A stretch of 64,000 bases of DNA from NCBI GenBank assembly GCA_026874595.1, contig CM049315.1, positions 11,532,664 through 11,596,663 on the forward strand, in the 5' to 3' direction. Under the pieces are notes generated by a model, which saw only the letters and a program-made list of their open reading frames with translations, was not told the DNA's origin and made no database searches. Every line of letters starts with the position of its first letter. Position 1 is the first letter of the stretch. This DNA comes from Sipunculus nudus. Taxonomy: Eukaryota; Annelida; Sipuncula; Golfingiida; Sipunculidae. Both the position numbers and the translations under genes were made by a program. Below are positions 33,381 to 61,902 of this stretch, one piece after another.

Positions 33381-33459
33381 ATGATGGCCTGTCATGCCTG
33401 GATGTACCGGCCAGTGACCACCAACGAAAGCCTCTGGAGAAACTGGGGCTGGATGCAAG
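33381..33459 (+). CDS. First coding exon 1B of unrecognised plus-strand gene
   Basis: The exon starts ATGATGG with A at -3 and has an in-frame stop 60 bases upstream, so this is the first possible Met. It encodes 26 codons plus one base: MMACHAWMYRP, then VTTNESLWRNWGWMQ. The splice donor is CAAG|GTATCT at 33460. It ends in phase 1, and exon 2 at 61793 starts in the complementary phase, completing the junction codon as GAT (Asp). The peptide is rich in Trp and Met and low in repeats; there is no hydrophobic run long enough for a signal peptide or membrane helix. Higher GC than the surrounding intron supports it. I do not recognise the family. A distinctive short N-terminus on its own promoter fits an alternative first exon of a larger gene. 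Exons between this and exon 2 cannot be excluded. Confidence 0.6.
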
Positions 33460-36095
33460 GTATCTTTTAATTGCCATTTATCAGGATGTTGTCTCTGTAG
33501 CTGTAAATATATACACCTGTTTGTGTTCATGTGTATGTATGTTTTTTGAGGATTTTCCCATCACCCTGCCTTAAAATGGCAACTCTCATTTGATATTAAA
33601 AAAATTGATAATTTTAATCATTTTAATTATTTTCTTAATTATTTAAAAATTATTGTTTGTTTGCTAAGTGTTGCATTCCATAATTTTATATGTATATATA
33701 TTAAGTGAATCTGTGATTTATGCAGATCTGAGAAATAAACAATGATTCCAGAAGCATTGATATATTCACACATTAGTATTTCATAAAATTGTGATATATA
33801 TGATATTTAGATGAAAAGTTAAATAATTAATAATGTAAAATTATGAATCCTGTCTTATTTTCCTTGAAGGTTTTGTCAGATTAAAAAACACAGTACTAGC
33901 AGTTAAAAAAAAAAAATCAGCTCCAATTAATAAATGAATGAGAAAAACAAAAGTATTCTAAAATGTACTTGTATCTTTTTTAGATAAAATGTCTGGTTAT
34001 TATACAATTTTACAACTAAGAAGGGTCCAGTTAATAAATGGGAACCTCTGTATGCACATTTTATCATAACATATTGTATTATAAAACAACACATACTATG
34101 TTACTATGTGCATCTTGAAGTATAATTAAATAATATAATTCATTTAATTAATTCCTGATAATAATATATTACTTTATACATATGAGGAGTCTATAATTAT
34201 AAGATATCTATTCTTTTAATTATTGTACAGAATTTTGTTAATAATTCAAGGGATGTCAATATGATATGAAATATAGTGTTGAATTTTTAGAATGTTAAGA
34301 ACAATGTATCCTTTGTCAATCCTCAACCAGTTTAATTGTCCAGTGGTCATTTTCTGGTTAGAGCTAGGCTTAATTCTTTCAGGCATGTGAAAAAAAGTTA
34401 AGTGTTATCATTTTATATAATGGTGGATTGTAGTCTGGGTAAGTAAAGAAGAAATCTGGTCAAGTGGAGCACAGGTATGATGTGTGTACACCTGTCTTGG
34501 AATTTCTAATGGTCGATACGTCAGCATCTTCATTATGTTAAAACACCTGTTCCCCAGAACAACACTATTGAATAAGAATACATGCCGAGACCTTCAATCA
34601 GTGCACAAAGTTAAAGACCACCGTCTGAAATTCTTTGTGAAAGGTTACCTCAGTATCACAATTTACCAGAAAATAAATTGGGTGTAAGGTTTGATACATC
34701 TTTTATAATTCATACTAGAATGGAGATATACTGTTGCTTCTTAATTATTTGTATTGTTGAGATATTTGTTGGAATTTCTTCAGCTCTCATGATGATATTA
34801 AGCTGATAATTAAAATATATTTATTGAAATATATTTGTAAGATCAGGTTTGGCTGATGACTCCATGTTCTTTCATTCTCTTGCAATTTTTTTGTTATAGA
34901 TTTGTATTTATGTTGAAATACCAAATTACTTATAATAAAGTACAAATCCTCAGTACCATGTTCAAAATTGTTAAGTTTTGCATTATTTTATATCTGAAGG
35001 ACCACTGGCCATATTTGCCAGTGAGGTAAGGCATACAGTAAAAAATTTCTTTGTTCTTTATTTCATTAGTAAAAGCCAGAGCTTGATAGAGTATGGGTTA
35101 GTTTTCGTTGTCTGATAATTGGACAGATACAAAATAAAGAGAAACATTAAATTTTAACCATTCTGTATCTGTATCATTTGCTTTCAAGAGCATTGTGTGC
35201 ATGAATTAGAAGACAGTGATAAATATGGACATGCTGTAGTAACACCTGACATACTATGAACTAAATCAGATATTATTTAATTTCGTGTTCATGAAAGGAT
35301 TGGAGAAAATTAACACATATTTTAAATTATTTTTAAAATATTTTTTGTATCACTGTTTGGTAATGGGGATAACTGAATTTGGATATAAACTAAAAACCTA
35401 TCTATGCTTGAACAAGATTTCTTCAAACTAGTATAACAAATTTAACAGTTGCCATGAAATCATACATTCTTTATCAGTGAATATTATTTGATATAATTTG
35501 CAGTTATTTATTTCTTAATCTTAGTGTCACATGTACTTTGCATGGTTATATGCAATATTATGCTATATGATTTAAATTAAATTTATTTTTAATAGGTTTT
35601 TGGTTTAATTGTTAACAAAGATTGTAATTTTTAGAGGTTTTGCATGAATTGTTAATAAAGGTTGTCAGTATATTTTTCAAATGAGTCACTATGGCAGTTT
35701 GTTTTCAAGTTTTCAGTGAAGTATTTAACAAAATTAATTGGATTTATTGTCTCCTTGCAAAACAAATATTTTGACACATATTTGGTAAATAGATTGAAAC
35801 AAAGTAAGTTTTGTTGTTGTTTTTTAAGTAATCATTGTGTGATAAAAGTTTGGTTTGTCATCATTCATTGTAATCATTTTAATAACTACTGGTGCACTCC
35901 AGGTCAGAGGTCACAATGAAACCATACTCTTATATGGTTACTGTAGAAAACTACCTGCCCTGCACATTTAATAAATTGAAGAAATTGACATACACAAGAG
36001 GATGGAAGAATCACGTAAAAGATACAGAAAAGATATGTTAATAAAATTAATGACCAATATATATCACTTCAAATTTCAAACCTACATGTACATTA
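33460..36095. other. Intron 1B, first part
   Basis: Very AT-rich after the donor at 33460. No exon or mobile element is recognised; the ORFs 34484-34687 and 35662-35919 lack splice or sequence support. Confidence 0.5.
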
Positions 36096-36662
36096 GAACC
36101 CAGAGCTGAGTTAGCCACGTACACAAATGTAACTGGCTTGTACAACGAGTTGGCTGACTTAGTAGTAAGCTGAGTTTTGTGGCTCGACTAGGCCTGCAAA
36201 ATGTCGGCTGGTTAAAACTGACCTGAAAGCCTATTCATTTGACCATATTACAAAGTAACATTTTATGTTACAAAGAATCTGTTCTATTAAAACAAGTCAT
36301 CTACATTGCATGTGACATATTGCATCCATTTTACATTTAACTAGTTTGTGATAGAATATGGAGTATAGTTTATCCTTGTAGTTTCATAAGCCAACATTTT
36401 TATATTTAAACAATCACATCGTTTCCTTTCAGTGACAATTAAGAAACAAAGGAAAAAACAATCCTGAACATTTGTTTTGGGCATTTTTAATTAAAAAAGA
36501 TTGATCTTTTTTTATTATTTTTTCTCAAGCCAAACTGAACTGCACAAATTTGGCTCACTTTAGCTCAATGAAATATTGGCGTCACCTCCTGATAAAATTG
36601 GCTGGCTCAGCTTAATCTTAACTCAGCTGGCGGAGGCGCAAAATGGTGGTGGCGCTGGGCTC
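36096..36662. mobile_element. MITE with TA target duplication (mariner-like)
   Basis: The left end is GAACCCAGAGC, and the right end, reverse-complemented, is GAGCCCAGCGC (9 of 11 identical). TA lies immediately outside both ends (36094-36095 and 36663-36664). Weaker inverted similarity continues inside (CTGAGTTAGCC / CTGAGTTAAG, GGCTGACT / GCTGAGCCAGCC). At 567 bp with no transposase, it is a non-autonomous element; the TA duplication suggests the Tc1/mariner superfamily. Confidence 0.5.
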
Positions 36663-36664
36663 TA

Positions 36665-37336
36665 ATATACTTAATAGTGAGTGCAGGTATTTACAAAATG
36701 TGTGACATTATTGGAGTTTGATTTCTCAGTAGCATCTATTTGTCTTATAGAGATATGGTGGTAATAGATGATTCTGAAATCAGAGTTATTTTGAGGTCTT
36801 TTCATATATAGAAATAAAAAAATTTCATTCCATGAATCTTTGACATTCACAAAAACAAGAATGATCATATCAAAACTTAAGTATGTTACAGCTAGCCCTA
36901 AAAAAGAATACAGCACTACTAACAGTAAAACATTTATCGATTTAAAAAACCACATTACATGTCACATAAAAAATTTAATTATTTTACTGCTGTGTGTAAA
37001 ACCTAACACTTCACATAATTTCTTTTGTGTCCTAGAATTACATTTTATTCCCTGGCTTTAAGTGGGGATCACTCGGGATGACTAAAGCACTAGTAGGGCA
37101 TGTCCTTCCATGTGTGCATCCATTCACTTGTGAATATATATTTCTGGATGAATTTTTTACAAATTCAAAATTATTTTCTCATTTTAGGAGCATCTTAAGG
37201 TTGTTATATTTGCAATGACCTTCGATCCACTGTATATATACCACCTTTCAATATATGTCATGTGATCAGTTTTGAAATTTGATTTTCACCTACATAAGAG
37301 GAAAAAAGAGCCTCAGTATCCTTGCATAGAAAACTT
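36665..37336. other. Intron-like sequence, nothing recognised
   Basis: AT-rich. Overlapping ORFs on both strands near 36671-37061 are unsupported. Confidence 0.45.
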
Positions 37337-37668
37337 TGACTGCAAAACTGACTAACAGTCAGGATCAAACAGCAAAACTGACCAACATAATCACACAGCA
37401 AAACTGACCAATTTACAAGATCAAACAGCAAAACTGACCAACGTAATCAAACAGCAAACCGACCAATATACAAGATCAACCAGCAAAACTGACCAACATA
37501 ATCAAACAGCAAAACTGACCAGTATACAAGATCAAACAGCAAAACTGACCAACATACAAGATCAAACAGCTAAACTGACCAACATACTTCTTAAGAAAAA
37601 TCAGCAAAACTGACCAACATACAAAAAAAAAACAGCAAAACTTACCAACATACAAGAAAAAACAGCAC
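37337..37668. repeat. Minisatellite of alternating 27- and 30-bp units
   Basis: The common core is AACAGCAAAACTGACCAA. Units alternate between a form followed by CATAATCA (27 bp) and one followed by TATACAAGATC (30 bp), so the array is partly a 57-bp dimer repeat. The last three units at the right edge are degraded with A-runs. The minus-strand ORF at 37476-37670 (Cys/Phe-rich) is a by-product. Confidence 0.9.
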
Positions 37669-37689
37669 AAAAATGAGACAATTTAATAT

Positions 37690-38064
37690 TTAATATAAAA
37701 TCCTCAGTATGTTTTCTCTTGTTTTTTGCTCAGAACCCACACCTTCTATAAACTTGTTTGGAAATTCATATAGTATACATATATTCACTTCTGGCAGACT
37801 AGCTGTTAAAGGATATCCAGTCTGGACATTAGTTCCATGGTGTCCTTTTGATTCCTCACTGATTTGAACTGTATCTACCAGGACTTTTACAGAAGAGGAA
37901 CGTGTGCTTAATGTGTAACATAAGTATCCCTGCTTCAATAATGAGATTTGTCGTCCGCTGAGAGTTATCCCACGTAGGTGGTTAACAAAACAACTGACTT
38001 TAAAATTGATATCATATATTACGTCTGTTCCTGGCGCCCAGGACAAACTACTCACAGTCATCAT
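37690..38064 (-). CDS. Unrecognised 124-codon ORF, possible exon or retro-pseudogene
   Basis: The minus-strand frame from ATG at 38064 to a TAA at 37690 is outside tandem repeats and has balanced, protein-like composition: MMTVSSLSWAPGTDVIYDIN near the start, VNHLRGITLSGRQISLLKQG in the middle, VQTGYPLTASLPEVN later. The frame stays open at least ten codons upstream of the Met (IKNCFALTD), with AG acceptor-like sites near 38096-38103, so it may be a terminal exon rather than a complete gene. A SINE begins just beyond, at about 38115. No signal peptide, membrane segment or domain is recognised. Alternatives are a terminal exon of an antisense gene nested in the intron, a processed pseudogene fragment, or a lucky open frame in AT-rich DNA. 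Confidence 0.3.
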   Translation of the reverse strand: MMTVSSLSWAPGTDVIYDINFKVSCFVNHLRGITLSGRQISLLKQGYLCYTLSTRSSSVKVLVDTVQISEESKGHHGTNVQTGYPLTASLPEVNICILYEFPNKFIEGVGSEQKTRENILRILY

Positions 38065-38114
38065 GTCAGTGAGTGCAAAACAGTTCTTAATCTGCCTGTC
38101 TGCTGATAAATATG

Positions 38115-38350
38115 AAGCGTGGTGGTGTAATGGTTAGGGGACGTGACTGGGTACTACAGGGGTTGTGGGTTCGGGTCCTGATCTGCCCGCCTTCAGCTCT
38201 AAGACTCCTAGTCGAATTCTTTACCACAAGGGCAGGCTCTCTCCACCCAGGAGTAAATGCATGCATGGTTACTGGTAAGGCCTGCAGATCGAACGAAAAA
38301 CCTACCAGCACCTATAATAGCAACTTGGGTTTTATGTTCCCCAGGGTGCT
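38115..38350 (+). mobile_element. tRNA-derived SINE, family 2
   Basis: Box A TGGTGTAATGG at 38123-38133 and box B GGGTTCGGGTCC at 38167-38178 are in tRNA-like order and spacing. The downstream core CTCCACCCAGGAGTAAATG is shared with the minus-strand copy at 30690-30917. The plus-strand ORF 38112-38441 covers the SINE and is not a gene. The 3' end is approximate. Confidence 0.68.
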
Positions 38351-40161
38351 GAGAAAATTAACCTGCAAGAATGATCATAACCAAAAGACCAAGAAGGCAA
38401 AGATTAAGTCAGATGAGACAGACGCCATCACTTATACCTGACTAAAAGAACTCTACCTTTACGTTAAATATATGATTCTTAAAGGATTTGTCCAAATTTG
38501 AAACCAGAGGGCACTGAAAGAGCACACACCTTTATCAAGGCAAGATTTATATCCAGATCTCACTTCCTCAACTGTTCATCAAAATCCATCAGTTAATATT
38601 TTTTTTATCATGCTAAAAAAACACAGATAAAACTTGATCCTGTATTTGCATCAGGATTCAGATCACAGCTAACATATTGTATCTACGTCCTTGCCTCTAT
38701 AAACTCACCATACCCTGACACTGCAGTGAGGTCATTCCATGAATCTTATGAGCTATTTTTACAGAGACAAACAGACAGAAGAGGATAGACAGACATAGCT
38801 AATATTATTAATTTTTTCTGTCTAACTTGTTGAAGAAGGTTATGTACCATCTATATTGTAATCAACAGTGGTAGCACTTTATGTTAGTCATGCAAACCTC
38901 CATGGCAACAATGTAGAAATTATGTTTTTAGACCTGAAATTGTGGAAATCATGCCAAGTGTGTCCTAAGGGGGTCATTTCCCATAAATCCTGAGAAATTT
39001 GACATTTTTGCCACAAAGAGGCTACTGCACCGTCATCCATCAATATGCAACTACATGAACTCTGCGAGAATGGGAAATACTGGTATGCTAGTTGTAATAA
39101 TTAAAGTAGTCAGTTTGAATCAACAGAAGAAAATAGATACATGTAGAAGATAGAAGCATTTACAAGATAGATGCGTTAGTTGTTATCCTTATGGCCTTGG
39201 CTTACTTAATTAAAAACTATATTGGTAAAAATTTTTCATTTCATAGAATTAGGAGAATAATACTTTTTAAAAAAAAATGAGTTAACTTCTTGCATATCAT
39301 GTCTTTTATCTACTGGAATGTCACATGGATGGGAAAATCATCTGCATTGCATTTACTGTCTCATCAGGAGTCCTCAGTTTGCTCCCTGTTGCCATGAACT
39401 TGACCTTACAATAAAAAAGGATCGCTTAATCATTGTCAGATTTGCCATTAGAGTGATGGTCAGTCATGAACGCTTGCTCGTGTTGACTTAATGAAGTCAC
39501 GAGCTAACAGGCAGTGATGTCAAACTGAGGTCATGTTATCAGGTTAATGAAGTTGTGTAATTGAATTCTAGAGCATGATTGTAATATTGAAATACGATAG
39601 ATCATGTTTAATTACCAGAGTTACTTATCCAGTTACCCTTGATTATTCAACTGCTGGGTGCTGAAAGGAAAACTTGTATACTTCAGTCCGGATAATTCCG
39701 ACCAAGCATGTGTTTGAGACCAAAATTATGTCTTCATACTCTCAAATGCAGTATGTGTCTATGCATTGCCACAAACTTCAGGAATTCTGCTTTAATTCAT
39801 CATTGTAGGGCTATACATCCTTTTTAGTGTTTTTTTCTGGTTTAGGTATATAGAGATCACATGACACTCTTGATGAACGTTTTGTTATAAAGCAACCAAT
39901 TACTTATCAAATAGTTTTTGTGTTGAGTGTTTTATAAAAAATCCCCATTTAAATTCCAATAAATAGTGTTCAGTTACCAAAATATATCTTTAATATATAA
40001 AATTTGAATGTCTCTTTTTCATAAGATCACTAAAACTAAAATTTGAAAAATTTCTTTTAATCTGTTATATGAGAAAAAACATACAAATAATTTTCAAATA
40101 TGCATTTTTCACTATAATTTTGAGCCATAATTTTCAGTTGATAATTTGATTATATACCTGG

Positions 40162-40165
<4 letters not shown>
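38351..40165. other. Intron-like sequence with one motif-rich patch
   Basis: At about 39420-39560 the sequence is less AT-rich, with several GTCA/TGAC half-sites and an AGGTCATG motif, but it has no coding support. The remainder is AT-rich with nothing recognised. Confidence 0.35.
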
Positions 40166-40214
<49 letters not shown>

Positions 40215-40222
40215 CATATCAT
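40166..40222. repeat. (AT)n microsatellite
   Basis: About 25 AT units interrupted by CAT and AAA positions. It would fold on itself. Confidence 0.9.
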
Positions 40223-41107
40223 AAGAGCTGCAGCCAGCTGATGTATGTGTGTTATTATAAATTGTTCTACGTACTTGGTAATGATGGACAGTGCCAGGAC
40301 TTTTAAAACAATTAAAAATTAAATTTGATGTGTTGAACATCTTAGAAACTACCGTATACATGATATAGTTTGCAATTAGATATATACATTAAGACAATTT
40401 TTTTAACTAATTATATTGACATAGCACATGCTAACAATAATATATTAATGATTTAGTGCATGGTCATGGGATGGTAGTCAAGTCACCAGACCAAGACCCA
40501 AAAGGTCTTCAAGGTAACAAAGCTAAGTGTAAGGTCATGGAATAAGGTGACACTCTGGTGTCATCCTAGTGCAAACTGTGTGATTTGTATGTAGCTGCAG
40601 ATGTTAACTATCATTAATGTCTGTCCCTGATACATGTTGTCCTGTACTTGGATTACAGGTGCTTGTTTAGTCAGCTGAGATGAAGACTGTGGTTTATTCA
40701 TATTTGCAGGGTTAAAATTTAGCGATTTTCACTTTTTCAGTATTTTGCAATCTTATCATACAAAAGACCTATACACAGAGTGTAACCATTATTATGTGAA
40801 ATGATTATATCAAATATTATGTGCACAAAATCTTATTAACAATATATATTGTTTCTTAATGGCAGACAATTAGAAAAATTTGATATAATCTAAAATATCA
40901 ATCTGTGAACATAGTTCAACATACACAATCTGTTTTTATACATACTGTGAATATTCTACTTTATTTTTATCTTTGATGATGGGCCCTCTTATTCAAAATG
41001 GTTTATTTTTGTGATAATTCCTCTTCATGAATAATGCGTTTTTGAAACCCTTGCGAACAAAAAGGCAATTCAACTGCAGTATATAGACTATAAGCAGTAC
41101 CAGCTAT
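40223..41107. other. Intron-like sequence flanking the 54-bp array
   Basis: AT-rich with nothing recognised. Confidence 0.45.
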
Positions 41108-43861
41108 GTATCTGTACCTGTTCATACACGTCAGAACATGCAGGTACACACCCTCAGACAGGTATCTGTACCTGTTCATACACGTCAGAACATGCAGGTA
41201 CACACCCTCAGACAGGTATCTGTACCTGTTCATACACGTCAGAACATGCAGGTACACACCCTCAGACAGGTATCTGTACCTGTTCATACACGTCAGAACA
41301 TGCAGGTACACACCCTCAGACAGGTATCTGTACCTGTTCATACACGTCAGAACATGCAGGTACACACCCTCAGACAGGTATCTGTACCTGTTCATACACG
41401 TCAGAACATACAGGTACACACCCTCAGACAGGTATCTGTACCTGTTCATACACGTCAGAACATGCAGGTACACACCCTCAGACAGGTATCTGTACCTGTT
41501 CATACACGTCAGAACATACAGGTACACACCCTCAGACAGGTATCTGTACCTGTTCATACACGTCAGAACATACAGGTACACACCCTCAGACAGGTATCTG
41601 TACCTGTTCATACACGTCAGAACATACAGGTACACACCCTCAGACAGGTATCTGTACCTGTTCATACACGTCAGAACATGCAGGTACACACCCTCAGACA
41701 GGTATCTGTACCTGTTCATACACGTCAGAACATGCAGGTACACACCCTCAGACAGGTATCTGTACCTGTTCATACACGTCAGAACATACAGGTACACACC
41801 CTCAGACAGGTATCTGTACCTGTTCATACACGTCAGAACATACAGGTACACACCCTCAGACAGGTATCTGTACCTGTTCATACACGTCAGAACATGCAGG
41901 TACACACCCTCAGACAGGTATCTGTACCTGTTCATACACGTCAGAACATGCAGGTACACACCCTCAGACAGGTATCTGTACCTGTTCATACACGTCAGAA
42001 CATGCAGGTACACACCCTCAGACAGGTATCTGTACCTGTTCATACACGTCAGAACATGCAGGTACACACCCTCAGACAGGTATCTGTACCTGTTCATACA
42101 CGTCAGAACATACAGGTACACACCCTCAGACAGGTATCTGTACCTGTTCATACACGTCAGAACATGCAGGTACACACCCTCAGACAGGTATCTGTACCTG
42201 TTCATACACGTCAGAACATACAGGTACACACCCTCAGACAGGTATCTGTACCTGTTCATACACGTCAGAACATGCAGGTACACACCCTCAGACAGGTATC
42301 TGTACCTGTTCATACACGTCAGAACATACAGGTACACACCCTCAGACAGGTATCTGTACCTGTTCATACACGTCAGAACATGCAGGTACACACCCTCAGA
42401 CAGGTATCTGTACCTGTTCATACACGTCAGAACATGCAGGTACACACCCTCAGACAGGTATCTGTACCTGTTCATACACGTCAGAACATACAGGTACACA
42501 CCCTCAGACAGGTATCTGTACCTGTTCATACACGTCAGAACATGCAGGTACACACCCTCAGACAGGTATCTGTACCTGTTCATACACGTCAGAACATGCA
42601 GGTACACACCCTCAGACAGGTATCTGTACCTGTTCATACACGTCAGAACATGCAGGTACACACCCTCAGACAGGTATCTGTACCTGTTCATACACGTCAG
42701 AACATGCAGGTACACACCCTCAGACAGGTATCTGTACCTGTTCATACACGTCAGAACATGCAGGTACACACCCTCAGACAGGTATCTGTACCTGTTCATA
42801 CACGTCAGAACATGCAGGTACACACCCTCAGACAGGTATCTGTACCTGTTCATACACGTCAGAACATGCAGGTACACACCCTCAGACAGGTATCTGTACC
42901 TGTTCATACACGTCAGAACATACAGGTACACACCCTCAGACAGGTATCTGTACCTGTTCATACACGTCAGAACATGCAGGTACACACCCTCAGACAGGTA
43001 TCTGTACCTGTTCATACACGTCAGAACATGCAGGTACACACCCTCAGACAGGTATCTGTACCTGTTCATACACGTCAGAACATGCAGGTACACACCCTCA
43101 GACAGGTATCTGTACCTGTTCATACACGTCAGAACATACAGGTACACACCCTCAGACAGGTATCTGTACCTGTTCATACACGTCAGAACATGCAGGTACA
43201 CACCCTCAGACAGGTATCTGTACCTGTTCATACACGTCAGAACATGCAGGTACACACCCTCAGACAGGTATCTGTACCTGTTCATACACGTCAGAACATA
43301 CAGGTACACACCCTCAGACAGGTATCTGTACCTGTTCATACACGTCAGAACATGCAGGTACACACCCTCAGACAGGTATCTGTACCTGTTCATACACGTC
43401 AGAACATGCAGGTACACACCCTCAGACAGGTATCTGTACCTGTTCATACACGTCAGAACATGCAGGTACACACCCTCAGACAGGTATCTGTACCTGTTCA
43501 TACACGTCAGAACATGCAGGTACACACCCTCAGACAGGTATCTGTACCTGTTCATACACGTCAGAACATGCAGGTACACACCCTCAGACAGGTATCTGTA
43601 CCTGTTCATACACGTCAGAACATACAGGTACACACCCTCAGACAGGTATCTGTACCTGTTCATACACGTCAGAACATGCAGGTACACACCCTCAGACAGG
43701 TATCTGTACCTGTTCATACACGTCAGAACATACAGGTACACACCCTCAGACAGGTATCTGTACCTGTTCATACACGTCAGAACATGCAGGTACACACCCT
43801 CAGACAGGTATCTGTACCTGTTCATACACGTCAGAACATGCAGGTACACACCCTCAGACAG
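41108..43861. repeat. Minisatellite: exactly 51 copies of a 54-bp unit
   Basis: The array covers 2754 bp, which is 51 x 54 with no remainder and no indels. Each unit reads GTATCTGTACCTGTTCATAC, then ACGTCAGAAC, then ATRCAGGTACACACC, then CTCAGACAG. The only variable base I see is R: G in 36 copies and A in 15 (copies 6, 8, 9, 10, 13, 14, 19, 21, 23, 26, 34, 38, 41, 47, 49). Because 54 is divisible by three and lacks stops, three frames stay open for more than 900 codons (plus strand 41106-43871 and 41138-43963, minus strand 41003-43849). These are almost certainly not genes. Near-identity implies very recent expansion or homogenisation, or assembly effects. Confidence 0.97.
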
Positions 43862-44039
43862 GTTACTTTAACCAGACTCCAGGACAGATTGCTAACCACC
43901 TCACCCCACCTATTTGTAGGTTTTCTATTATACCAGATGCTTTGGCTGGCTTTATATTCATGAGATGGTCAAATTTGTGATACTCACGGAAGGGATTCCA
44001 TCAGGAAAATAAAACCTTGATGCCCTATCAAGACAACTG
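43862..44039. other. Unique flank between array and MITE
   Basis: Short non-repetitive DNA beginning GTTACTTTAACC. No feature recognised. Confidence 0.5.
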
Positions 44040-44044
44040 AACAG

Positions 44045-44227
44045 CAGTGCTGGATACAGAGGGGGGTGGGGGTCCATGGGGTCTGGAACCCCACCTTTGG
44101 AGCTATTTCAATATATTTTACCGGCCTGGACCCCTTCCTTTCTTTGACAGAGGTCTTTTTTTAGGTTTTCATATTAGTCTTCTTGGGATGGACCCTCCCC
44201 TTTTCCAAAATCCTGGATCCGCCCCTG
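44045..44227. mobile_element. 183-bp MITE with CAGGGGCGGATCCAG-type ends
   Basis: The right end CTGGATCCGCCCCTG, reverse-complemented, is CAGGGGCGGATCCAG, matching the left end CAGTGCTGGATACAG at most positions. AACAG flanks both sides (44040-44044 and 44228-44232) as a probable 5-bp target duplication. The interior is GC-rich (GGGGGGTGGGGGTCC) and non-coding; the ORF 44047-44247 lies inside it. This type of terminus is common in animal MITEs; superfamily not assigned. Confidence 0.6.
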
Positions 44228-44232
44228 AACAG

Positions 44233-45643
44233 TCATTTATACTCTAGCCTCATTGGTTCCTCATATACGTTATCTATACCAGTAAGTATAAAAAGGCAAC
44301 ATATATTGATATTATAGAAATAATATCTTTTGTGTTACACATAAGTTAAAGATTGACCTTATGAATATATCAGATCCTTTATATAATCTGTCACTGATGA
44401 ACAAGAACCCTGTGGTCAAACAGGAAGCCTGAATGTTGTCTTAAGGTCCTGTTTCACAGCAACTCTTTAATATTTATCATCAACCAGTTATTCAGACACT
44501 ATTCAATAATTTCCATACTTTAACATTTAATTAGCTCTTTAGGTACAGCATATAATACTGTTAATTGAAGGTCTATATAAGTTAACTGTACATAAAGTAC
44601 ATGAAGTTTTAGATTTCACATGGACTGCATAGTTCTAAGTAATTTTTACAATAGATCATTAAGGTTTCCATGACACTTTTATGTGGTTGTCACAGTGACA
44701 AACCTTTGTTGTAACCATTGTCAGCTGACAATTGTCATCACCATGGCAACATAAAATTCTCATCACAATTTCAGTGTTTACTTTTTGTGGGTATGTTCCT
44801 TGGTAATACTTAATATTTCCAGAACAGGCAGCCAGTGGTTAACTGGTATGATGTAGCCTGCTGGTCCCACTTTCATACATCAGTCTGTATAACCTTTTAC
44901 AGTTATCCTCCAGCTCATTTGAGAATTAATTATACATCCTTCACACACATAAGATGGCAGGGTTGTTTTACCAGAGAGCGCTACAGATATGTAAGTAATT
45001 TTGTATTAGTGATTTGTATATTGAACTATGTGTAAGGACTAAATTAATAATGACCAGGGCTTTCAATAAGTGGAAAAAAATTAAATAAAAATTTATACTA
45101 TAAATATTTTTTACTTTGTGTCATTTGCCTGCATGTAGCATAAAGTGTTTGACTGAACATTTGAAATCTTTCATCAATTAGGACCAGGTTACACATATTA
45201 TATGTTGTGTATAGAAAACCAACCACACAGTAAACATGGACATAGTTGACTTTATATACATTGTAGTTTGTATATGCTCATGGTTAGGAGCTGTGACAAG
45301 AGTCCACTTTGATCTTTCAGTTAGAAGTCAGAAATCAGTGTGTCCTACAGGATGCTCCAACCTCCACAGCACATCATGTGAATTAGATTTTGAGGGTCAC
45401 AAGCACAGCTTTATCCTTGCATTCCTGAAAGCCCTTAATTACTAAAACTGCCTTAAGGAGATGTTCCTAACTCAAGTGTCATTATATATATAACTGGTGT
45501 CATTATTTATGTACATTGTTTGCAATCCAGAATAGCAATCTTGAGTAATTTGAATTTTGAAAGCTTATTTTTTTTCAAATTTGAGAAATGTGGGATGGAG
45601 AGCTTAATATGTCATGGTGCTTCTACTGGGTATAGGCTTATTC

Positions 45644-45682
<39 letters not shown>

Positions 45683-50925: not shown

Positions 50926-53800
50926 ATCTGTAGTCATTTTACATTTGTTATTCATACCAGCACCCACTGAACCATTTACCAGATGGAGTCCCACACAAAT
51001 CAGCTGATTCCAGGAATCCTGAATCATCTGTAGTACATCTCCACCCATTCTGTGGTAATGAATAAAAAAATTCATGAAAAAAAATCCAAATGCCTGCATA
51101 ACACCCTAACCCCTCCTCCCCTTCTCAACTAATCTATTCACACACATAAGTTACTCCTATGACCCTACTTATAGACTACACAGTTATTTTGTGAGGGTAA
51201 AATTGTTGTACCTCGTAACCTTTAATACTAATTTTTTTATGTTGTGTGTGTTGCAAATCTGTTGACTTGGGATCTCAAGGTAACAATAGGAATATTGGTC
51301 AGTCCTGTTGTAGATTGCAGTTAATTTTATTAGAAAAAGAAAAATACATTAATATATTGAATTTATAGCGAAAGACATGCAACCAGGTGAAGTCAATCAG
51401 TTTTGAAAATGTTATAATTATTAGTAATTGCACCCCTTGATTTTATCCCAAAGAGGAATAAATAAACTAGGAAAAATTGTGATTTTTTAACAGACTTTTA
51501 GCATTGATTTTTAAATTAAAATCTCAATTGAAGATATTTGAGCCCCTTAGAAACAGAGTGGCCCATACCACATTTTGAAGTTTTGAGAAATTTAACTTTA
51601 AGGTTAAGCTTTTTGGTATCTCCAAAATATGGACCTAAAGAAAAACTCTGAAACAGTTTCCTTGCAGACAAAGGTGAAATGTTTTTGGTCTTTCCTTATT
51701 ATAAGGATTGAGGCAATTTAACCTGTTTATGACTTTGAACTTTTTTTTTTGGTTTTGGGATGGACCATTCTTCCACTCAGTTTTGCTTACTAGTTTATGT
51801 GATATTCTGGGATAGATCATTTTGGCATTCATTTATTCCAGTAAGCATTTGGAATGTGCAATTGTGATTTTGTATTATTGGTTACAAATGAAAACAATTT
51901 ATAATTCTGAATGGTCATAGAAACTTTCTATATAGACCTAGGTCACTGCTGTTTGTTAAAATATGATTTAAAACAAAAGTATTAAAGGTAATGTTTTGTG
52001 TATTGCTGGTCCTCTATGAAGTGCTTGGACAGAAGTCACTGTCGTCACTGTCATCTGCAGCACCATCTTCATCAATTAGGGCATGCAGCTGCTCATCTGA
52101 TTAATACATTGCTGCCATTTTTACTGTGAATTCTTGGATTCTTTGGGATAAACCATTCTGGCTTTCAGTTCTTTTAACTATGACATAGATCCAGAGGTGA
52201 ACCCTCTGAATATCTTTGGTATAAACCAGTTAGCATATAAAGTGCAAATACACATGGTGATAGATGACCTTAACTGGTAAACGTTTTTGAGTACCTTAGT
52301 GACAGAGACAGTCGGCAAATCATACACTCAGTGACTGGGGACTTTGCACACAGGTACCTTATGGAGCTAATTGAAGGACATACGAACAGCACCTGCTGAT
52401 CACTTTGATTGTGTCATAAATATGTTCTTTTTTCATTCACAGGTCATTTCAGTCATTTAATAAAAGAGTAGAAGTAAATAATTTTCATGGTTTTTAATAT
52501 TGTATTTATACCTACCCTGTGAGCCAAATAGCTATCAAAAAATACAATGAACAAGACCCGGCACTCCCAGTCCACCCTGATTGGCTTATTATTAGACTCC
52601 TTCACCTTCAGTGACACCTTCAATTTTAACTGAAAATTTGACACCACAGAGATATCAGTTACCTATTGAATAAATCAAAACAAAATTTTTTATCAGTACA
52701 CAAAGCTCTATTTTGTTTTTCTGTATATGTTAATTATTCCTTGGACGATAAGCAAGGCCACCCATGCCCTTATATGGCTACTTATGGTAACATACATCGA
52801 CACTTGTCATTTTCTGGAAAGCAGGGCTTAAGTCCTACCCCAGGCAACTGGCCTGAGGACAGTGAAACTGAGGAGCTGCAACAGTTTACAGGGTGACCTG
52901 TGCTGAGTTGGCATTGTAAAGCTGTGCACATAAGACTGACCTGTTAATTAATTCTTTTCTTGATTCATCTTATAAGCCACAGTTACTCCAAATAAAAATA
53001 CCAATTACTGGGTTTTCCTTGATGCTGAAACATGGACAGTAACTAAAGTTTACTTGTATTAGAAATATTAACTTGTTTAAAAAAAATGAATTTTCTCATT
53101 TGTGATTTGTTTTAAAAAGTCAGGCTCTAGCCTAAAGAAAGTTTTGAAAGTTTATGACACCTGTAAATTTTGGTTTTTATTTATACACAATTTACTAATT
53201 TACCTAATAGTGTAGCCAGTGGTTCCATTCACTGTCTGCCTTTACTCAGTTTTAGATGTATTAAATCACACAATTTTGACATGGTATAACCTGTTACCTT
53301 ATTATTTAAAGTTACTGATAGGTCACTTTCATGATTTTTTCAACCATAAATCAGTACACTGTATTCAGTCTAATAAAAGCTTTATATAGTTATAAATAGT
53401 CGTTTTATTTTTTACACGAGCAATGTTGTTATTATATCACAATAACACAGGCCACACAGGCATGACCACCCACCTGTAGTAATAAAAACCTACATTGGTT
53501 CTAATTAGAATTGTATACGTCAGATGTAACGTTCTTCATTATTAAACCATGAGTCAGGCCAATTAGGTAACAATTGTTGCATGAAGTGTTACATCAGTAT
53601 AAGCATATTTTGTAAGTTTTGTAATAAAAAATGCCCCAGTTAAACGAGTTGCTTCTAAGCCTGGTTTGTGAGGTATTGTTTTACTGTGTATGGGGGTCAT
53701 ATCCTGGTTAGTTAGAATCTCGCTTGACAGATTTTGAAAGCCTGAAAGCCTGCACACAGGACACATTCCCCTCATGTTTGTTCATGAGAGCACAGCTCTA
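50926..53800. other. Intron-like sequence, nothing firm
   Basis: AT-rich. A GC-richer patch at 52750-52900 lies in an open frame (52666-52896) but has no convincing splice sites or protein resemblance. Confidence 0.4.
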
Positions 53801-53809
53801 GGTCAGGTT

Positions 53810-53817
53810 TATATAAA
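53810..53817 (+). promoter_or_regulatory. TATA box for exon 1C
   Basis: TATATAAA is a consensus TATA box. A start near 53840 would give a leader of about 195 bases to the ATG at 54035. That leader is CpG-retaining and contains three near-tandem GATCCGTGT segments (about 53979-54009). Confidence 0.4.
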
Positions 53818-54034
53818 TCCATTACTCCTGGTACTTGTTTGCTGAGTTGACAAGGAACGCCCACTTGTAAGGTATCAGCAAGGTGATTGCAGATAAGGAA
53901 TCGTTGGTGTCGTTGTTTACTTACTGTCAGTACAGGTAGTAGGTGCTTGTATTATTTTGGTGGAACATCATCTTTACGATCCGTGTCTGATCCGTGTGAG
54001 ATCCGTGTGAGACTTGTGAAGCACAACTCCAGTC

Positions 54035-54047
54035 ATGATCCTTGAAG
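54035..54047 (+). CDS. Candidate alternative first coding exon 1C (Met-Ile-Leu-Glu, phase 1)
   Basis: ATGATCCTTGAAG is followed by the donor GTATAA at 54048. It encodes Met-Ile-Leu-Glu plus one base, so it ends in phase 1 and joins exon 2 at 61793 in the same frame as exon 1B, again completing an Asp codon. A perfect TATA box lies about 220 bp upstream and the presumed leader is less AT-rich than its surroundings. Being nearest to exon 2 (7.7 kb), it would give the shortest transcript. The coding part is tiny and the donor only moderate, so the call rests on the combination of TATA box, CpG retention and phase. I cannot name the gene. Confidence 0.35.
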
Positions 54048-54904
54048 GTATAATCAGCTCAGGTGAATATTTATTATTTTGATTTTAACAATTAGGAATG
54101 CTGAACATGGCCCTGAGCCAAATGTAAGTAGCCATTTTGACTTATCTGATATTAAGTGTGTGTGAAACATGCTACTTGCAGTACTCATCCAGTGTCCGCT
54201 AAACCAGTTGACACTTTGATGATCTCAGTTTTAATATCAAGTTATTGTTATTTTATTATTGTAAGAGACAATTTTATTATACAAATTGCTAAGATATCAG
54301 AAATGTACAGATTATAGTAGTCTCGTGGACATGACAATGGTAGTAGCAATGCTGCAAGCATGAATATTTTATATATATTTTATGCATGTATAGAAAGACA
54401 TGTTCACATATATAGAACATTTTTTTTACTGTTATGTAAAGATTAAGCTTTCAGTTTACTAGAATCTAAATGGAGTTACCCACAAGTGAACAAATAATTT
54501 TTACAAAAGTTGAGTATTTAATTTGATAAGGAAAAATTTATTGTTGCCTTATTTAAACATGCAATTATAAGTAATTAAATGTAATAAAGATGACAGAGTC
54601 TGCACTGTGTATCAGTTTATGTTTTGGTCAATTAACAAACTGAGCCAAGTTTACAGAGTGGTGTCACTCAAATAAAAAACAATCAGTGTTAACAACAGAG
54701 AAATGAAAGTAAAATGTACAATATTAATTAATTATTATAAAAACAGTTTGGTGGTGTTCATCATAGGTAAAATGGAGTTACACCTTTGACAGATATTTTA
54801 TTGCAGAGAAACAGTCAACATATGTTTGGGAGTAACATGTTACCTGTTGATTGTTTCTTTGCTATGTAAAATCCCTGTTATATGACATACAAACATATTT
54901 TAGG
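54048..54904. other. Intron-like sequence, nothing recognised
   Basis: AT-rich DNA following candidate exon 1C. Confidence 0.45.
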
Positions 54905-55190
54905 TTCCATTATAGCTAGACGCAGCCTAATGTTTAAGGTGCTTTACCACTGAGAGGAAGTTCTCTAGTCCAAGCCCCACCAGAACCCCAAAGCCAGTTC
55001 AGCCTCAGAGATCTGCTTTATTCTCTTAACTGCATGTTTTGATTTCTGGAATAATTCTGGCCCTGTATTTATAAAACCTGAACTCCATAAGCCAAAATAA
55101 TAACATATCATTAGTATTGTGTGGTAATCTTCATCTTCATACAGTAGGTAGGGCCACCAACAGGTGATGCTTGTATCCTTACTTACCAAT
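54905..55190 (+). mobile_element. Probable tRNA-derived SINE, family 3
   Basis: CAGCCTAATGTTTAAGGTGC followed by GAGAGGAAGTTCTCTAGTCC and AAGCCCC reads like a decayed tRNA head (box A, then box B near TAGTCCAAGCC). It lies directly upstream of a family 1 SINE. The tail, with CTGGCCCTGTATTTATAAAA, is not seen elsewhere in the window, so family membership rests on the head alone. Confidence 0.4.
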
Positions 55191-55192
55191 AC

Positions 55193-55465
55193 CGGCTTCT
55201 GTGGCTCAGGATAAAGCACAGGACTCAAAGCAGTCACCCCCTACCCAGGGTAAGCGCTCTCGCGGCTTAATGGGAAGGCTGTACCCCACAGACGTGTATC
55301 ACTCACAAATGAGTGTGTCTTTGGGAGGTTCCTTGGTGTTATGACCCAGCAGTGGGGATGAGTACACACCCAGGACATGCAGGTGTGGTAGACACCAGGT
55401 CTGGGTGACACTTGGATATAAAATAAAATGGTAGAAAGTGAGTGCTGCAGCCCTGTCATATAATC
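55193..55465 (+). mobile_element. tRNA-derived SINE, family 1
   Basis: Box A TGGCTCAGGAT starts at 55202, followed by AAAGCACAGGACTCAAA; box B is not recognisable, so the head has decayed or lost bases. The body (CTTAATGGGAAGGC, TATGACCCAGCAGTGG, TTGGATATAAAAT) and the ending GCCCTGTCAT match the minus-strand copy at 19445-19750. Overlapping minus-strand ORFs are by-products. Confidence 0.68.
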
Positions 55466-55852
55466 CCAAACTGAAATGGAACTCTGCAGATGTAAATACT
55501 TAGATAAGATATTTGATAAGTCAGCATTAAAATATGGAGGCAGTTACCTCTGAAAAAAGTTAAAAAAAATAAAATAAAATAAAAAACAAAACAAAAACCT
55601 GAATAAGGTGTCTGTTTACAGGGATCGTTTTTTTTGTAGGTTTTGTTTGTGTGCAGGATGACCCCTAAAAGTAACATGGTTATTTAAGTGCACAAGACAG
55701 TATAAGTTGAGTTTGTTAGATATATATCATTATAGATATATTATCCAAACTCCAATTTTATGAATTTAATGTATTTTAGCTACACATCAATATTTCTTGG
55801 GCATAACTATAAGTGTTCAATATATTCTATTTTCAACATGCATAAGCACGTA

Positions 55853-57063
55853 AATGTCAAGGCCCAGATCCCGATCTGGACCAATCGGCGATTGGTCCAG
55901 ACCAAATCCCAATCGGGGTTTAGGCTGGACCAAATCCCGATCAGGATCTGGTCTGGACCAATCGCCGATTAGTCTGGACCAGATGCCGATCAGGATTTGG
56001 TCCGGCCTAAACCCTGATCATTAACTTTTGGGAAAGAGAATGAGTTCCTGTCTGAACTTATCAAAGTTCAGGTAAGCCTAGACCTAGATTCAGAGCATGC
56101 CTATATCCCTGACAGGATGTCTGAAATTATAACTTAATAAGTAATAACAAATGTTAATTTAATTTGTAGTCAGTGTCAATTATTGTGTCTTAATAACTTA
56201 ATTAATATTTAAGTTTGAATTAATTGAATGATTATATTAATTGTAATTATTTTCAAGTCCTTGTATTATTTTTCAAAATGAATTATTATTTCCAGTATTT
56301 TCATCAGATTGTCTATTCAATTTTTTATATAACAATTGAATAGTTTAAGCCGATTCACTGTGTAAATAAGTGTATATATTTGATGCGTTTTGTAGGTAGA
56401 ATAAATTGTTAGATGGATGACATATATAAGAAGTTAAGTATCATATGAAGTTTTCAGTCCCCGGTTTTCAAATATGGATATTCTTAACTTGTATCAACTC
56501 ATAAACAGCTTACATTCAAATGAAAAGTCCTGATTTCATGAAAACAACAATTTATAACTTCTCTTATCAACATTTTCAACTAAATATATGTATATATTCA
56601 TGTTTTTATTACATTTATTTATTTATATATAAAATTATATTATACACAACTTGGTTTATTATTTTCATGTCTTAACCTTATGGAATATAATGTTTAGCCA
56701 AAGGCCTGCTCTAGTCTGCCATGGAATCTCAATCAGGAACTGGTCCAGACCAGATCCCGATCAGGGTTTAGGCCAGACTTAATCCCGATCGGGATTTGGT
56801 CTGGACCAATCAGGAATTGGTCCAGCCCAGATCCCGATCGAGATTTGGTCTGGACCAATTCCCAATTGGTCTAGACAAATCAGCGATTGGTCCAGACCAG
56901 ATCCCGATTGGTATTTGGTCTGGCCTTAACCCCGATCAGGATCTGGTCTGGACAAGGGTTTGACCAGATCCCGATCGGGGTTTAGGCTGGACCAAATCCC
57001 GATCGGGATTTGGTCTGTACCAATCGCCGATTGGTCCAGGTCGGGATCTGGGCCTTGACATAA
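55853..57063. mobile_element. 1.2-kb foldback element with palindromic repeat arms
   Basis: The outermost 60 or so bases are inverted repeats with about four mismatches (left ATGTCAAGGCCCAGATCCCG; the right end reverse-complemented is the same). ACGTA flanks both ends (55848-55852 and 57064-57068) as a probable 5-bp target duplication. The arms (55853-56015 and 56715-57063) are packed with alternating copies of GATCCCGATC-, AAATCCCGATCGGGATTT- and GGACCAATCG/CGATTGGTCC-type palindromes. The roughly 700-bp centre is AT-rich and codes for nothing recognisable. Superfamily unassigned. Confidence 0.75.
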
Positions 57064-57400
57064 ACGTATAAATTAAAACATCATGTTGTTTGCTCACATG
57101 AAATGGGAAGCCTGTTATTGTCACATATTTGAAAAAAAACATGTAAATGTTGCATATTTTAAAAAGAGTTGTACCGGATCAGTGGTATTGGTTATTTTTA
57201 TGGAAAACTGAGAAAAAAATATTTACACACACTTCTTGGACAATACTTATTGCAACCTTGAAACAGTATGAGATAAGACCGAGAGTGCAGTCCCCCATGG
57301 TGACTCTGTGACCTAGATGGCAAAAAAGGTTAATTGTCTTTTTTTTATTAAATTTATGTGACCAAGCGCAGTCCTATTCTCATAGAAAATATACTACCCA

Positions 57401-57760
57401 AGAATATGTAGAATAGTGTAAGTATATGAAGAATAGTGTAAGAATATGTAGAATAGTGTAAGAATATGTAGAATAGTGTAAGAATATGTAGAATAGTGTG
57501 AGAATATGTAGAATAGTGTAAGTATATGAAGAATAGTGTAAGAATATGTAGAATAGTGTAAGAATATGTAGAATAGTGTAAGAATATATAGAATAGTGTG
57601 AGAATATGTAGAATAGTGTAAGTATATGAAGAATAGTGTAAGAATATGTAGAATAGTGTAAGTATATGTAGAATAGTGTGAGAATATGTAGAATAGTGTA
57701 AGAATATGTAGAATAGTGTAAGAATATACATGTAGAAAATTGTAAGAATATTTAGAATTT
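57401..57760. repeat. 20-bp minisatellite with 100-bp higher-order period
   Basis: Sixteen exact 20-bp units (AGAATATGTAGAATAGTGTA consensus) run from 57401 to 57720, followed by degraded units. The variant AGTATATGAA starts units at 57421, 57521 and 57621, and the variant ending GTGTG occurs at 57481, 57581 and 57661. So five-unit blocks of 100 bp were duplicated, with one unit apparently lost in the last block. Minus-strand Tyr/Ile/Leu-rich ORFs (57354-57801) are artefacts. Confidence 0.93.
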
Positions 57761-57768
57761 AAACATGT

Positions 57769-58479
57769 GACAGTATCTTTCATTATAACCGTGTTGTTCA
57801 CACCTTTATCAACATCCTCCGCTGTTCCTTATTAACAGACAGGGAGCAGGGAGCAAAACATTAAATTATACAAATAAGATATGAAGAGCACTCCAAGTGC
57901 ACATACATCCACTACATGCAATGTGTTATCATGTTTCTTCAACCTTAAGACATACAGGCAAACAATAAGCCTACATTCCCATGGTGATCAGAACTAGCTT
58001 CTAATTTGAAAATTTAATTTACCTAAGCTTCCTTGCCTTGAGACCTACCTCTTCTCAAATTATTATTGTTCATATGATTTTAATATTGCTGCGGATCAAC
58101 TACTAATCACATTAGCCTCCACCCGCGCCCCCTATAGACTACCGAACGCCACCACCTGAGCCACGTAGAGTGGCTAGATTAGTTATAATAACTGTTTGTA
58201 AAATCCATGTAAAATAAATAGTTTACATTTAATAAATAATTCAAACTATTTTTGGGCTACAGATTTCTATATGGACAATACTTTCAGTGTGTCCCAAATA
58301 CAGAGCACCCTGTATCTTTAACAAGTGTTGCACATCTCAGTGTCATTGAAATTTATATGTTATAACCTGTTCACAATTATACTGGCAAAACAAACAAAAA
58401 ACAGGACGCAGGTAGAAACAGATTATCAATTGGATAGACAGAAATCCCTTAACGTTCACCAAATTTTTATCATAAAAAA
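57769..58479. other. Intron-like sequence, nothing recognised
   Basis: AT-rich, with a small GC-richer patch at 58115-58165. Confidence 0.4.
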
Positions 58480-58800
58480 ACACTTCCAAGGTGTTAGTGA
58501 CGTGAAGGAGAGCACAGCATGGCGTCCATGACGGCAGAACATGCGACACACCCACTGAAATGTTAAGTCTCATCATTAATGGCTTCAGGATATCCAAGGG
58601 GATCCCCCTTTACCATTTATCAACAATTGAGCAGTTTTCATTTTACAATACTTAACGAGAGGCCATGATGGAAACAAAAGAGAAAGTCAGTGTGACGGTA
58701 GCTGGAAGCTTCCTCTCGGCATCCAAGGTCACATCTTGAGTTTATGATGGTGTCTTGCGAGCAGCTGACTACTTCAGTGTCTCACAGGGGTAATTTGGTT
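58480..58800. promoter_or_regulatory. CpG-retaining intronic block, candidate regulatory element
   Basis: CpGs are concentrated here (GTGACGTGAAGG, ATGGCGTCCATGACGGCAG, CATGCGACAC, GTGACGGTAG, CTCGGCATCC, TTGCGAGC). Two very short ATG-led frames (about 58519-58565 and 58668-58740) end without a convincing donor. The one donor-like option is in phase 0, which does not fit exon 2. A regulatory element or a fourth promoter without coding contribution are the alternatives. Confidence 0.25.
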
Positions 58801-60614
58801 TACAAAGGATTCAATAAATAGTCATGGTCTGATACACTTAACATTACTGAGACGATAAGCTTTGGCTCAAATCGGTGTACTTTTGCTTTCACTTTTGTGA
58901 TTGCAGACTATTGACTAACTATATATGATTAACCACAGCTGATCTGCTGCTACTTGTTCAGGTCATCCTTACACAGGTGGTCGTTTAAGGATTTGGATTA
59001 AGCATTGAAGATTTTAATGTTTTCAGATATGTATACATATTATCGTAAGTACTCTTCTTTAAACCTTGATACAGATAATAGATTTTATTCTTTGCACTTA
59101 ATTTCTTTTTTAAACCTCAATACAGATTATAAATAAAACTGAACTGAGAATCAGCCTTAAAGAGTATAATGTTGTAATTATGTTTACCTGTGCTTTCTTG
59201 TTTGTTAATCTCTATTTTTATCAAAGGACAAGGTTTATATCTAACTTCATACTATCAAATTGATAATTCTAAACTTAGGTAGATTTCAGTACACACCTCA
59301 AGATAAATAATTTATTTTATCTTTTAAAAGGTAAATTAATGTAAAGATTCTGAAAAGCCATTACAGGGTGTTTTCTATTGGACAAGTTTGTACTTGTTTG
59401 CCTGTGTGTGTTTGTGTGCTAGTTTGTGTGTGAAATCTTATTATCATTTAACTACATAACCACAGCCCACATAGGAACACATATATAATGTTTAGTATTG
59501 GGCTTATTATATTTATTAATGTATCAGTAATTATTGCAGAATGGTAAAAACCACATTAATTGCCTCTTTTGTTCTTGTTTTATGCCTTAATTTGTATTTA
59601 CTTGAATAATTTTGCCCAGAGAGGATGAACATTCAGGACATATTTAATTAACAAATGATGCCTGTGAGTTTGGAGGTATATATTTCCTACTGGTTTGCAT
59701 AATGGTACACCACCACTCCATTTTCATAATTGAAGTGTTGAAGTGGTAGCTTGAGCTATAGACTTGACATCATGTGTTATGTAGCAAAAGTGTGTTTGTG
59801 TGTGTGTGTGTGCCACCAAGTAAACTATAATAAACTCCATGAGTGAATTCAATATATCAACTGTTTTGTTACCATTAATATATAAATATACCTTAATGGA
59901 TTGCAACCAACATCGGTATCTCAAGGAGTATATATAAGTACCCCACATATCCATATTTTGTATATAGAATTTTCATACTCACCTAAATGGTTTACTAGAG
60001 TTGTGTGTTTAAAATGGTGTTTAAATTTTGTCATTAACCTGCAAGGTGCTCAGTTATAGCAGATGTGCACACCTGTGGCAGGTGAAAATAAATACAGGCA
60101 CTACTTTTATTTTATATCTTTTGTAATATCAATCAAGGTAAGCAGGCAAAATAAAACCAGGATTAATAAGATGCTCCTTCCAACTGACACCCCTCGTAAC
60201 AAGTGACCAGTCACATATACTGTAACATCACAAGCAAATCAGACGGGTATATGTTAACTATCCATGATTGTAGTGTTGAAAGTTGACAGTTAAGAAGATC
60301 ATTATATTCAATGATAACATATCCTTTATATTACCCATATAGCAAAGATTCATATAATATATTGATCAGATCTTTTATATTATTTGCCAAAAAGAAACGA
60401 GAATTTGCACTGTGTAGATGTTCCCTTGTATCCTTTTCAGATTTTTTAAAATTCATACAGTAATAAATGGATATATATATTTATACTACCTGTAGGTTAG
60501 CTGATAATGAAAATGGAATCCCCATGAAATTATGAAAAAGTTAAAATCTCTCAAATTTTGCCCCACATATGTGAACCCAGCCACAGACTGTGATATAGAG
60601 TACACAGCTCATGG
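58801..60614. other. Intron-like sequence with a short (GT)n at 59791-59812
   Basis: AT-rich, no supported exon. The small GT microsatellite is the only repeat. Confidence 0.45.
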
Positions 60615-60620
60615 TATACA

Positions 60621-60660
60621 GTGAAGGTCACAGTGAAGGTCACACATAGCTGCCAGGTCA
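60621..60660 (+). promoter_or_regulatory. Cluster of three AGGTCA half-sites
   Basis: The 12-bp GTGAAGGTCACA is tandemly duplicated (60621-60644) and AGGTCA occurs again at 60655-60660. TGAAGGTCA is close to the extended half-site used by monomer-binding nuclear receptors. It lies 1.1 kb before exon 2. Chance or repeat origin remains possible. Confidence 0.25.
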
Positions 60661-61792
60661 TTTTAGTCAGGCTCTTGTATTTTAGTCATATGTCTTATAT
60701 ACTTCTTGTGACATGTTTTTGCACAAGTTTTTTGCAGGTTCTGCTATACATGGTATTGTAGAATGCCATGAGTTAACATCTGACTTTGTAACATCTTGGG
60801 AACATAACACCTGTAAATATGCGGAGGGCATGGTCCATGTAAACAAATATTGATAAATGTCTGTCATGCGTACAAAACATATCGATAGATGAATGCTTTT
60901 AATATTATCAAAATAGGACACATGACTACCTGATATTCTCAAGTTGGCTCAAGATCCATTGAACCACTTTGGTCAGATGCAATAAACTGGTTTTTCAATA
61001 TTACAAAGGATCTATCAGATATATACTTAGAATGAGTTTTACTGATTTGGAGAATCAAATCCATTCGATATCTATCTCATAACACTCAGTGAACTGGTTC
61101 AGATAGATAGGCTGTAATAAAATAGTATCCAAGTGAGAAAAAAATTCTTGATAGTCAATATCCAGAAATACAAGACAAGATAACAGGGAGACAAAAAATG
61201 TATTCAGATATTTATTGATGTTTTAGAAAGATTACTTGGCTATGCAGTCTGGATTTTGAAAATGTTTTGGACTTAATTATATTTCTTATTCTATGAGTGT
61301 TTTATAGTTTTCTTATACAGGCAGACCAACACACTTTCTTTGTTCAGATATATATATATAAGCATGATTTGGTATGGTTCATTGTAAAATGTTTAAATGT
61401 ATAACACCTTGGAATAGTTCATATCTTCATAATGCATTAATCAAAAATTTATCTATAATCAGAAGCAGATGGTGTTTTCCAGGAAATGTTCAACTATATT
61501 TAAAGTTATGTTCAATGGAATTTTAAAGTTATGGATATACTAGTAGTTTGTCCTCAAAATCCACAAAATTACCCTGCCCCCTACCATTTTAAATTTGAAA
61601 TTAGAATTTATCACTTTGGAGGTTTGAACAGGTACCCACAAATCCCTGAATGCCTGAGTCGATCCACACCCACATGTTAACACCGTCTTACCTGACATGT
61701 TATGTCACATGGTTACAATTTCGGATCATTTCAGGAACTTTTTATGCTGACCTGATGATAAGACTTTTAACAGGGGTTTATGTTTGTTACAG

Positions 61793-61902
61793 ATTCAGCA
61801 GAGCTATGTGGTCAGCAGGATGCACCAGTCTTGTACGTCTCCGACCAGCCGGCCCACGCCGTTGGCTCCCCAGAGAGCATGGATGTCGGGGGCACGTCGG
61901 AG
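61793..61902 (+). CDS. Internal coding exon (exon 2) of unrecognised gene
   Basis: A GC-rich, CpG-containing 110-base block in AT-rich intron. Left border: pyrimidine-rich TTTATGTTTGTTACAG. Right border: TCGGAG|GTCAGT. All three frames are open, but the frame set by the phase-1 first exons reads (G)AT as D and continues SAELCGQQDAP, VLYVSDQPAHAVG, SPESMDVGGTSE. That is acidic, Ser/Pro/Gly-containing and the most natural of the three; the other two give Arg/Pro-rich or Trp/Arg/Gly-rich strings. It exits in phase 0. The peptide looks like a disordered regulatory N-terminus; no domain is recognised. The following exon must lie beyond about 61.9 kb and I did not find it before 64 kb. The gene appears to have several promoters, which is frequent for transcription factors and signalling proteins, but that does not identify it. 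Confidence 0.62.

Follow-up and report, generated by a model that had tools for sequence, protein, structure and literature searches.

A probable internal coding exon in Sipunculus nudus and its possible first-exon partner across a predicted 28.3-kb intron

The window analysed here, a stretch of 64,000 nucleotides from Sipunculus nudus, contains two short exon candidates on the plus strand. The first of these, exon 1B (33381..33459), is a candidate first coding exon of 26 codons plus one base which ends in phase 1, and the second, exon 2 (61793..61902), is a probable internal coding exon with a frame offset of 2 which ends in phase 0. If both belong to the same gene they would enclose a first intron at 33460..61792, which is 28.3 kb long with a GC content of 35% and carries a 54-bp tandem array as well as other repeats. 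Upstream of exon 1B on the same strand lies a GC-rich stretch (32850..33155), ranked second among the GC segments of the window and a possible 5′ UTR or promoter, inside which there is a possible non-coding exon (32857-32995; acceptor 6.1 bits, donor 4.9 bits). A rival first exon is found at 61780..61902 (plus strand), where an ATG upstream of the exon 2 acceptor is in frame with exon 2. Candidates were scored using splice, start-context and amino-acid frequencies that are metazoan or database averages rather than values fitted to the species, and the minimum exon lengths, score floors, repeat masks, block size (150) and shuffle number (60) were our own choices.

Exon 2 is fairly convincing as a coding piece. 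It is preceded by TTTGTTACAG, and its end reads GAG/GTCAGT across the donor. Internal-exon candidates on both strands were ranked with metazoan splice matrices and a simple codon model, tandem repeats being masked and splice scores above 0 required. Of the 485 candidates, the top six were all versions of exon 2 in the same frame; 61793-61902 came second, less than a tenth of a bit behind 61799-61902. The first-pass annotation had proposed that the frame imposed by a phase-1 entry is the most protein-like one of exon 2, and this frame (offset 2) is indeed the best, by about 10 bits over the other two plus-strand frames (9.5, 10.5 and 10.2 bits at an assumed third-position GC of 0.45, 0.55 and 0.65, respectively). 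It scores 0.2 and 2.0 bits at third-position GC values of 0.55 and 0.65, against -8 to -17 for its competitors, and -3.6 bits at 0.45, against -13.1 and -14.1. An open frame with an equal or better score arose in 0.28% of 20,000 composition-matched simulations. This coding bias is a direct observation, and GC by codon position in exon 2 (0.72/0.50/0.69) follows the usual coding pattern.

The splice sites of exon 2 had been described as clean, which holds for the donor (76 of 7,649 GTs score as high or higher) but less so for the acceptor, which is moderate (549 of 6,977 AGs do so). Within the open frame there is a stronger acceptor at 61849 (3.5 vs 1.9 bits), and those at 61799, 61802 and 61819 are only about a bit lower than that at 61793. 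Since there are several alternative acceptors, all giving similar exon totals, the wording was an overstatement on this side.

A GC-rich island can carry an open frame and splice-like words by chance, and it is rather unlikely, though worth weighing, that neither exon 1B nor exon 2 is coding and that both are islands of this kind. In shuffles of 150-base blocks that kept local composition (n=60), the score of exon 2 was reached somewhere in the window in 18 of 60 cases, which favours such a reading; near the place of exon 2 itself it was reached in only two, which argues against it, as does the frame preference seen in the simulations. The CpG content of exon 2 also speaks for coding sequence, with 8 CpGs in 110 nt vs 10.8 expected where the predicted intron is CpG-poor (observed/expected 0.28); this density is reached at 7 places in the window. 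On the side of chance, initial exons as good as exon 1B are no commoner than in the shuffles (33 outside the exon 2 island vs a mean of 43.1 after shuffling), and the collections searched, which are almost without animal sequence, yielded no homologue. The earlier designation of this locus as the main coding signal in the window is sustained in that exon 2 is the best internal-exon island once repeats are masked, but not in the sense of a score that is rare across the window in shuffled sequence.

Exon 1B is plausible as a coding piece. The features claimed for it can be read directly from the DNA, namely an ATG at 33381, an in-frame upstream stop at 33321-33323, a frame open to the donor and a phase-1 end. 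From ATG 33381 it reads MMACHAWMYRPVTTNESLWRNWGWMQ, with a second in-frame ATG at 33384, and its donor, after 33459, is AAG/GTATCT. The start context had been called good; the ATG is present, and its context scores 0.6 bits with the matrices used. The donor also scores 0.6 bits and is weak, with 788 of 7,649 GTs on both strands scoring at least as high. By total score exon 1B ranks 46th of 393 initial-exon candidates (33 of these 46 lie outside the exon 2 island), and an equally good initial exon appeared at its place in 6 of 60 shuffles. Simulated sequences equalled or exceeded its frame in 8.9% of cases, so that exon 1B shows no clear frame-specific coding signal; its CpGs (2 vs 6.3 expected) are as depleted as those of the intron. 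Exon 1B is thus the weak half of the model, given its weak donor, its rank, its CpG depletion and a frame which is not the best at its own position.

That best frame, at offset 2, stays open over 33371-33571. Its score is 0.8 to 1.6 bits, compared with -3.7 to -1.2 bits for the frame from ATG 33381, an advantage of 2 to 5 bits. Its GC by codon position is 0.80/0.40/0.56. If 33381-33459 were coding at offset 2, as part of another exon or a piece of a decayed gene, it would be out of phase with the best frame of exon 2. We consider this highly improbable, as an exon starting between 32985 and 33459 would have no acceptor with a score above zero, the offset-2 frame has no match in the PDB, and the difference in score amounts to only a few bits over 79 nt.

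The main point that raises exon 1B above other potential partners is its position within the base composition of the window. Exon 1B has a GC content of 57%, against 35% upstream and 27% downstream, and it is the GC-richest of the phase-1 candidates of at least 60 nt lying outside the tandem repeats at 8-9.4 kb. The window was cut into GC-rich segments blind to genes, and the 23 top segments were examined. The segment at 33386-33460, fourteenth outside tandem repeats, begins 5 bases from the ATG and ends 1 base from the exon 1B donor, and no other of the 23 combines an open frame with an ATG or acceptor at one border and a donor at the other. In 20,000 trials with randomly placed segments, an ATG-donor pair was found in 1.1% and an acceptor-donor pair in 1.7%; for all 23 segments together, chance alone would give about 0.25 ATG-donor coincidences. 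These figures are to be read with a border tolerance of 6 bases, chosen after the borders had been seen, and a donor floor of 0.5 bits, just below the score of the exon 1B donor (0.6). The border at exon 1B is observed directly, and the coincidence would be worth something as evidence for a segment picked in advance. For exon 2, the left border of its GC segment (61796-62023) fits, and the right end lies 121 bases past the donor.

Exon 1B and exon 2 join to give 63 residues without a stop, as had been proposed. The codon at the junction encodes D and is followed by SAELCGQQDAPVLYVSDQPAHAVGSPESMDVGGTSE, which ends before GTCAGT. The two-exon model has a start codon, an upstream in-frame stop, GT-AG borders and continuity of phase. 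The fit in phase had itself been offered as evidence, and in this role it fails. Upstream of exon 2 on the plus strand there are 120 phase-1 ATG-to-donor candidates including exon 1B, with 75 distinct donors (donor score above 0, tandem repeats not masked); in 35 of them the donor is closer to exon 2 than that of exon 1B, and in 100 it equals or exceeds that of exon 1B in strength. With repeats masked, 13 candidates including exon 1B reach the score of exon 1B, and six of the other twelve are nearer to exon 2. In the shuffles the mean number of phase-1 candidates as good as exon 1B was 7.1, with at least one in all 60. The phase fit says almost nothing, because equally good phase-1 candidates are expected by chance.

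The abundance of such partners also bears on where the gene may begin. Exon 2 may be real and exon 1B not its partner, in which case the upstream exon would be non-coding or elsewhere (32857-32995, or a site beyond the window), or ATG 61780 would be the start of translation, within an exon beginning upstream of the acceptor proposed for exon 2; we regard this as unlikely, though less so than a chance origin of both exons. With the in-frame ATG 61780, exon 2 could be the first coding exon, and the candidate that this ATG opens is top of the 393 initial-exon candidates. Most of that score is contributed by exon 2 itself, however, and the ATG has a poor context, with T at both -3 and +4. As for 32857-32995, its splice sites are both better than the exon 1B donor. 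There are stops in all six frames of 32800-33140, and the GC-rich stretch 32850-33155 has no long open frame and no repeat copy elsewhere in the window. It could contain the promoter or an exon of the 5′ UTR, with its acceptor at 32857 and its donor following 32995; as 32857-32995 has stops in all frames, this exon could only be untranslated. The GC segments further count against another start, as none of the 22 others has a matching start or acceptor plus donor. A structured RNA in 32857-32995 (on either strand), exon 1B or exon 2 was considered and rejected (z-scores between -1.2 and 0), and so was an origin of exon 1B or exon 2 from a dispersed repeat with copies elsewhere in the window, as neither lies in such a repeat.

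The joined peptide had been said to match no known family, and this was borne out in every search that was run. It has no Pfam family at E values up to 10, its best PDB match (E 1.4) is at chance level, and pattern searches gave one stretch in the viral contigs of IMG/VR, without confirmation, and 22 stretches in GTDB contigs, none of which was confirmed. Eleven short words of the peptide occur in none of 5.39 million open-access papers, and the longer open frames at both exons found nothing in the PDB for one set and a best E of 1.5 for the other. The result says little, as these collections are almost without mollusc sequence; because the sources are prokaryotes, viruses, solved structures, curated families and open-access text, missing relatives do not make the peptide unusual. 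We think it very unlikely that the 63 residues begin a lineage-restricted protein that has no outside relatives and is expressed from its own promoter just before exon 1B. Elsewhere in the window, 30 frame stretches (with X at stops) gave no Pfam match at the curated cut-off; the scan covered the plus strand at 1-7.7, 9.5-29.5, 31-41 and 44-64 kb and the minus strand at 9.5-19.5, 31-41 and 44-64 kb. The sole match, on the minus strand at 44-49 kb, scored 15.4 against a 25-bit cut-off (E 0.02) and was taken as chance. Within the window no tRNA was found, a tRNA-like pattern of our own design had no match and Rfam gave none at gathering scores. IMG/VR contained no exact copy of a 29-base pattern taken from the 54-bp array.

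Taken together, exon 1B and exon 2 may be the beginning of an ordinary animal gene whose first intron is long, joined as the first-pass annotation proposed; this is the likeliest of the readings, and we give it somewhat less than an even chance. The sequence features of that proposal, the open join and the best frame of exon 2 all stand, as does exon 2 as the main coding signal; the phase fit falls away as evidence, and exon 1B is left as a possible partner. Under this model a spliced protein-coding gene would run on the plus strand and continue to the right past the end of the window. Its transcription would start upstream of 33381, possibly within the GC-rich stretch 32850-33155, and its translation at ATG 33381 or ATG 33384. 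Removal of the 28.3-kb first intron would join CAAG to ATTC, and exon 2 would then carry the N-terminus, which has no known domain, on into further exons beyond the window. We infer transcription, the splice between the two exons, the use of the exon 1B ATG and everything downstream of exon 2, and the pairing of the two exons is rated as possible.

If the model is true, the 5′ end of one gene would be added to the genome annotation, with an N-terminus split by a long intron of a kind that automatic gene finders may miss. There is also a lesson in method, in that when two short exon candidates lie 28 kb apart, a fit in phase is what chance would give and should not count as evidence.

Among transcription-factor genes with poorly conserved N-termini, such as those for nuclear receptors, a short, unconserved N-terminus lacking any Pfam domain often precedes a long intron. 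The resemblance of the present locus to such genes lies in this layout, with no sequence similarity in any search, and is offered as a lead and not as a classification. No DNA-binding or ligand-binding domain of nuclear receptors was present in the scanned frames of the window, outside which the later exons would fall.

A broader comparison is with animal genes that have long first introns. One report describes a long first intron as the general rule in eukaryotes (PMC11214234), and another describes the growth in size of neuronally expressed genes as coming mostly from introns toward the 5′ end, with the longest genes in an octopus also showing neuronal expression (PMC7222433). The present locus differs from the known cases in that the searches matched it to no protein family. 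As modelled, it would share with them GT-AG borders, a short first coding exon, a phase-compatible second exon, an intron tens of kilobases long close to the 5′ end and exon candidates whose GC content lies above that of the intron.

A GC-rich stretch at 32850-33155, upstream of the candidate first coding exon (exon 1B, 33381-33459), occurs once in the window and is without long open frames. Good splice-like sites lie within it at 32857 and 32995. This stretch is possibly a promoter or a 5' UTR exon.

Tandem repeats are also present. An array of a 54-bp unit spans 41108-43863 (51 copies, 99% alike) and stays open in more than one reading frame, several in all, on both strands because the unit length is a multiple of three. 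Short tandem units form large inverted pairs in two further regions, 22884-23791 and 55848-57067, where the unit types are GACAATTACCCCCC and GACCAAATCCCGATC, respectively.

Two pairs of related GC-rich sequences lie in opposite orientation, one at 19403-19669 and 55231-55506 (71% identity), and a shorter one at 30852-30921 and 38109-38180 (73% identity). The GC-rich stretches containing the shorter pair resemble tRNA-derived SINEs.

A dispersed repeat is found in two copies, 16163-19065 and 46161-48024, with 91-94% identity in aligned pieces, and related pieces lie at 13852-15262 (75-81%) and 48857-49264 (67-69%). The first copy is split by an insert of approximately 970 bases (17542-18512), and comparison of the copies within the window shows no insert at the corresponding point of the second, 47474. 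The insert starts with TCTAATACTTATAAAAGG and ends with CTAG, is flanked by A on one side and T on the other, carries a short GC-rich palindrome, CCTGGTATACCGGG, immediately ahead of its end, and retains a CpG o/e of 0.90. Because of these termini, flanks, palindrome and CpG content, and by the hallmarks of Helitrons, the insert looks like a young non-autonomous Helitron.
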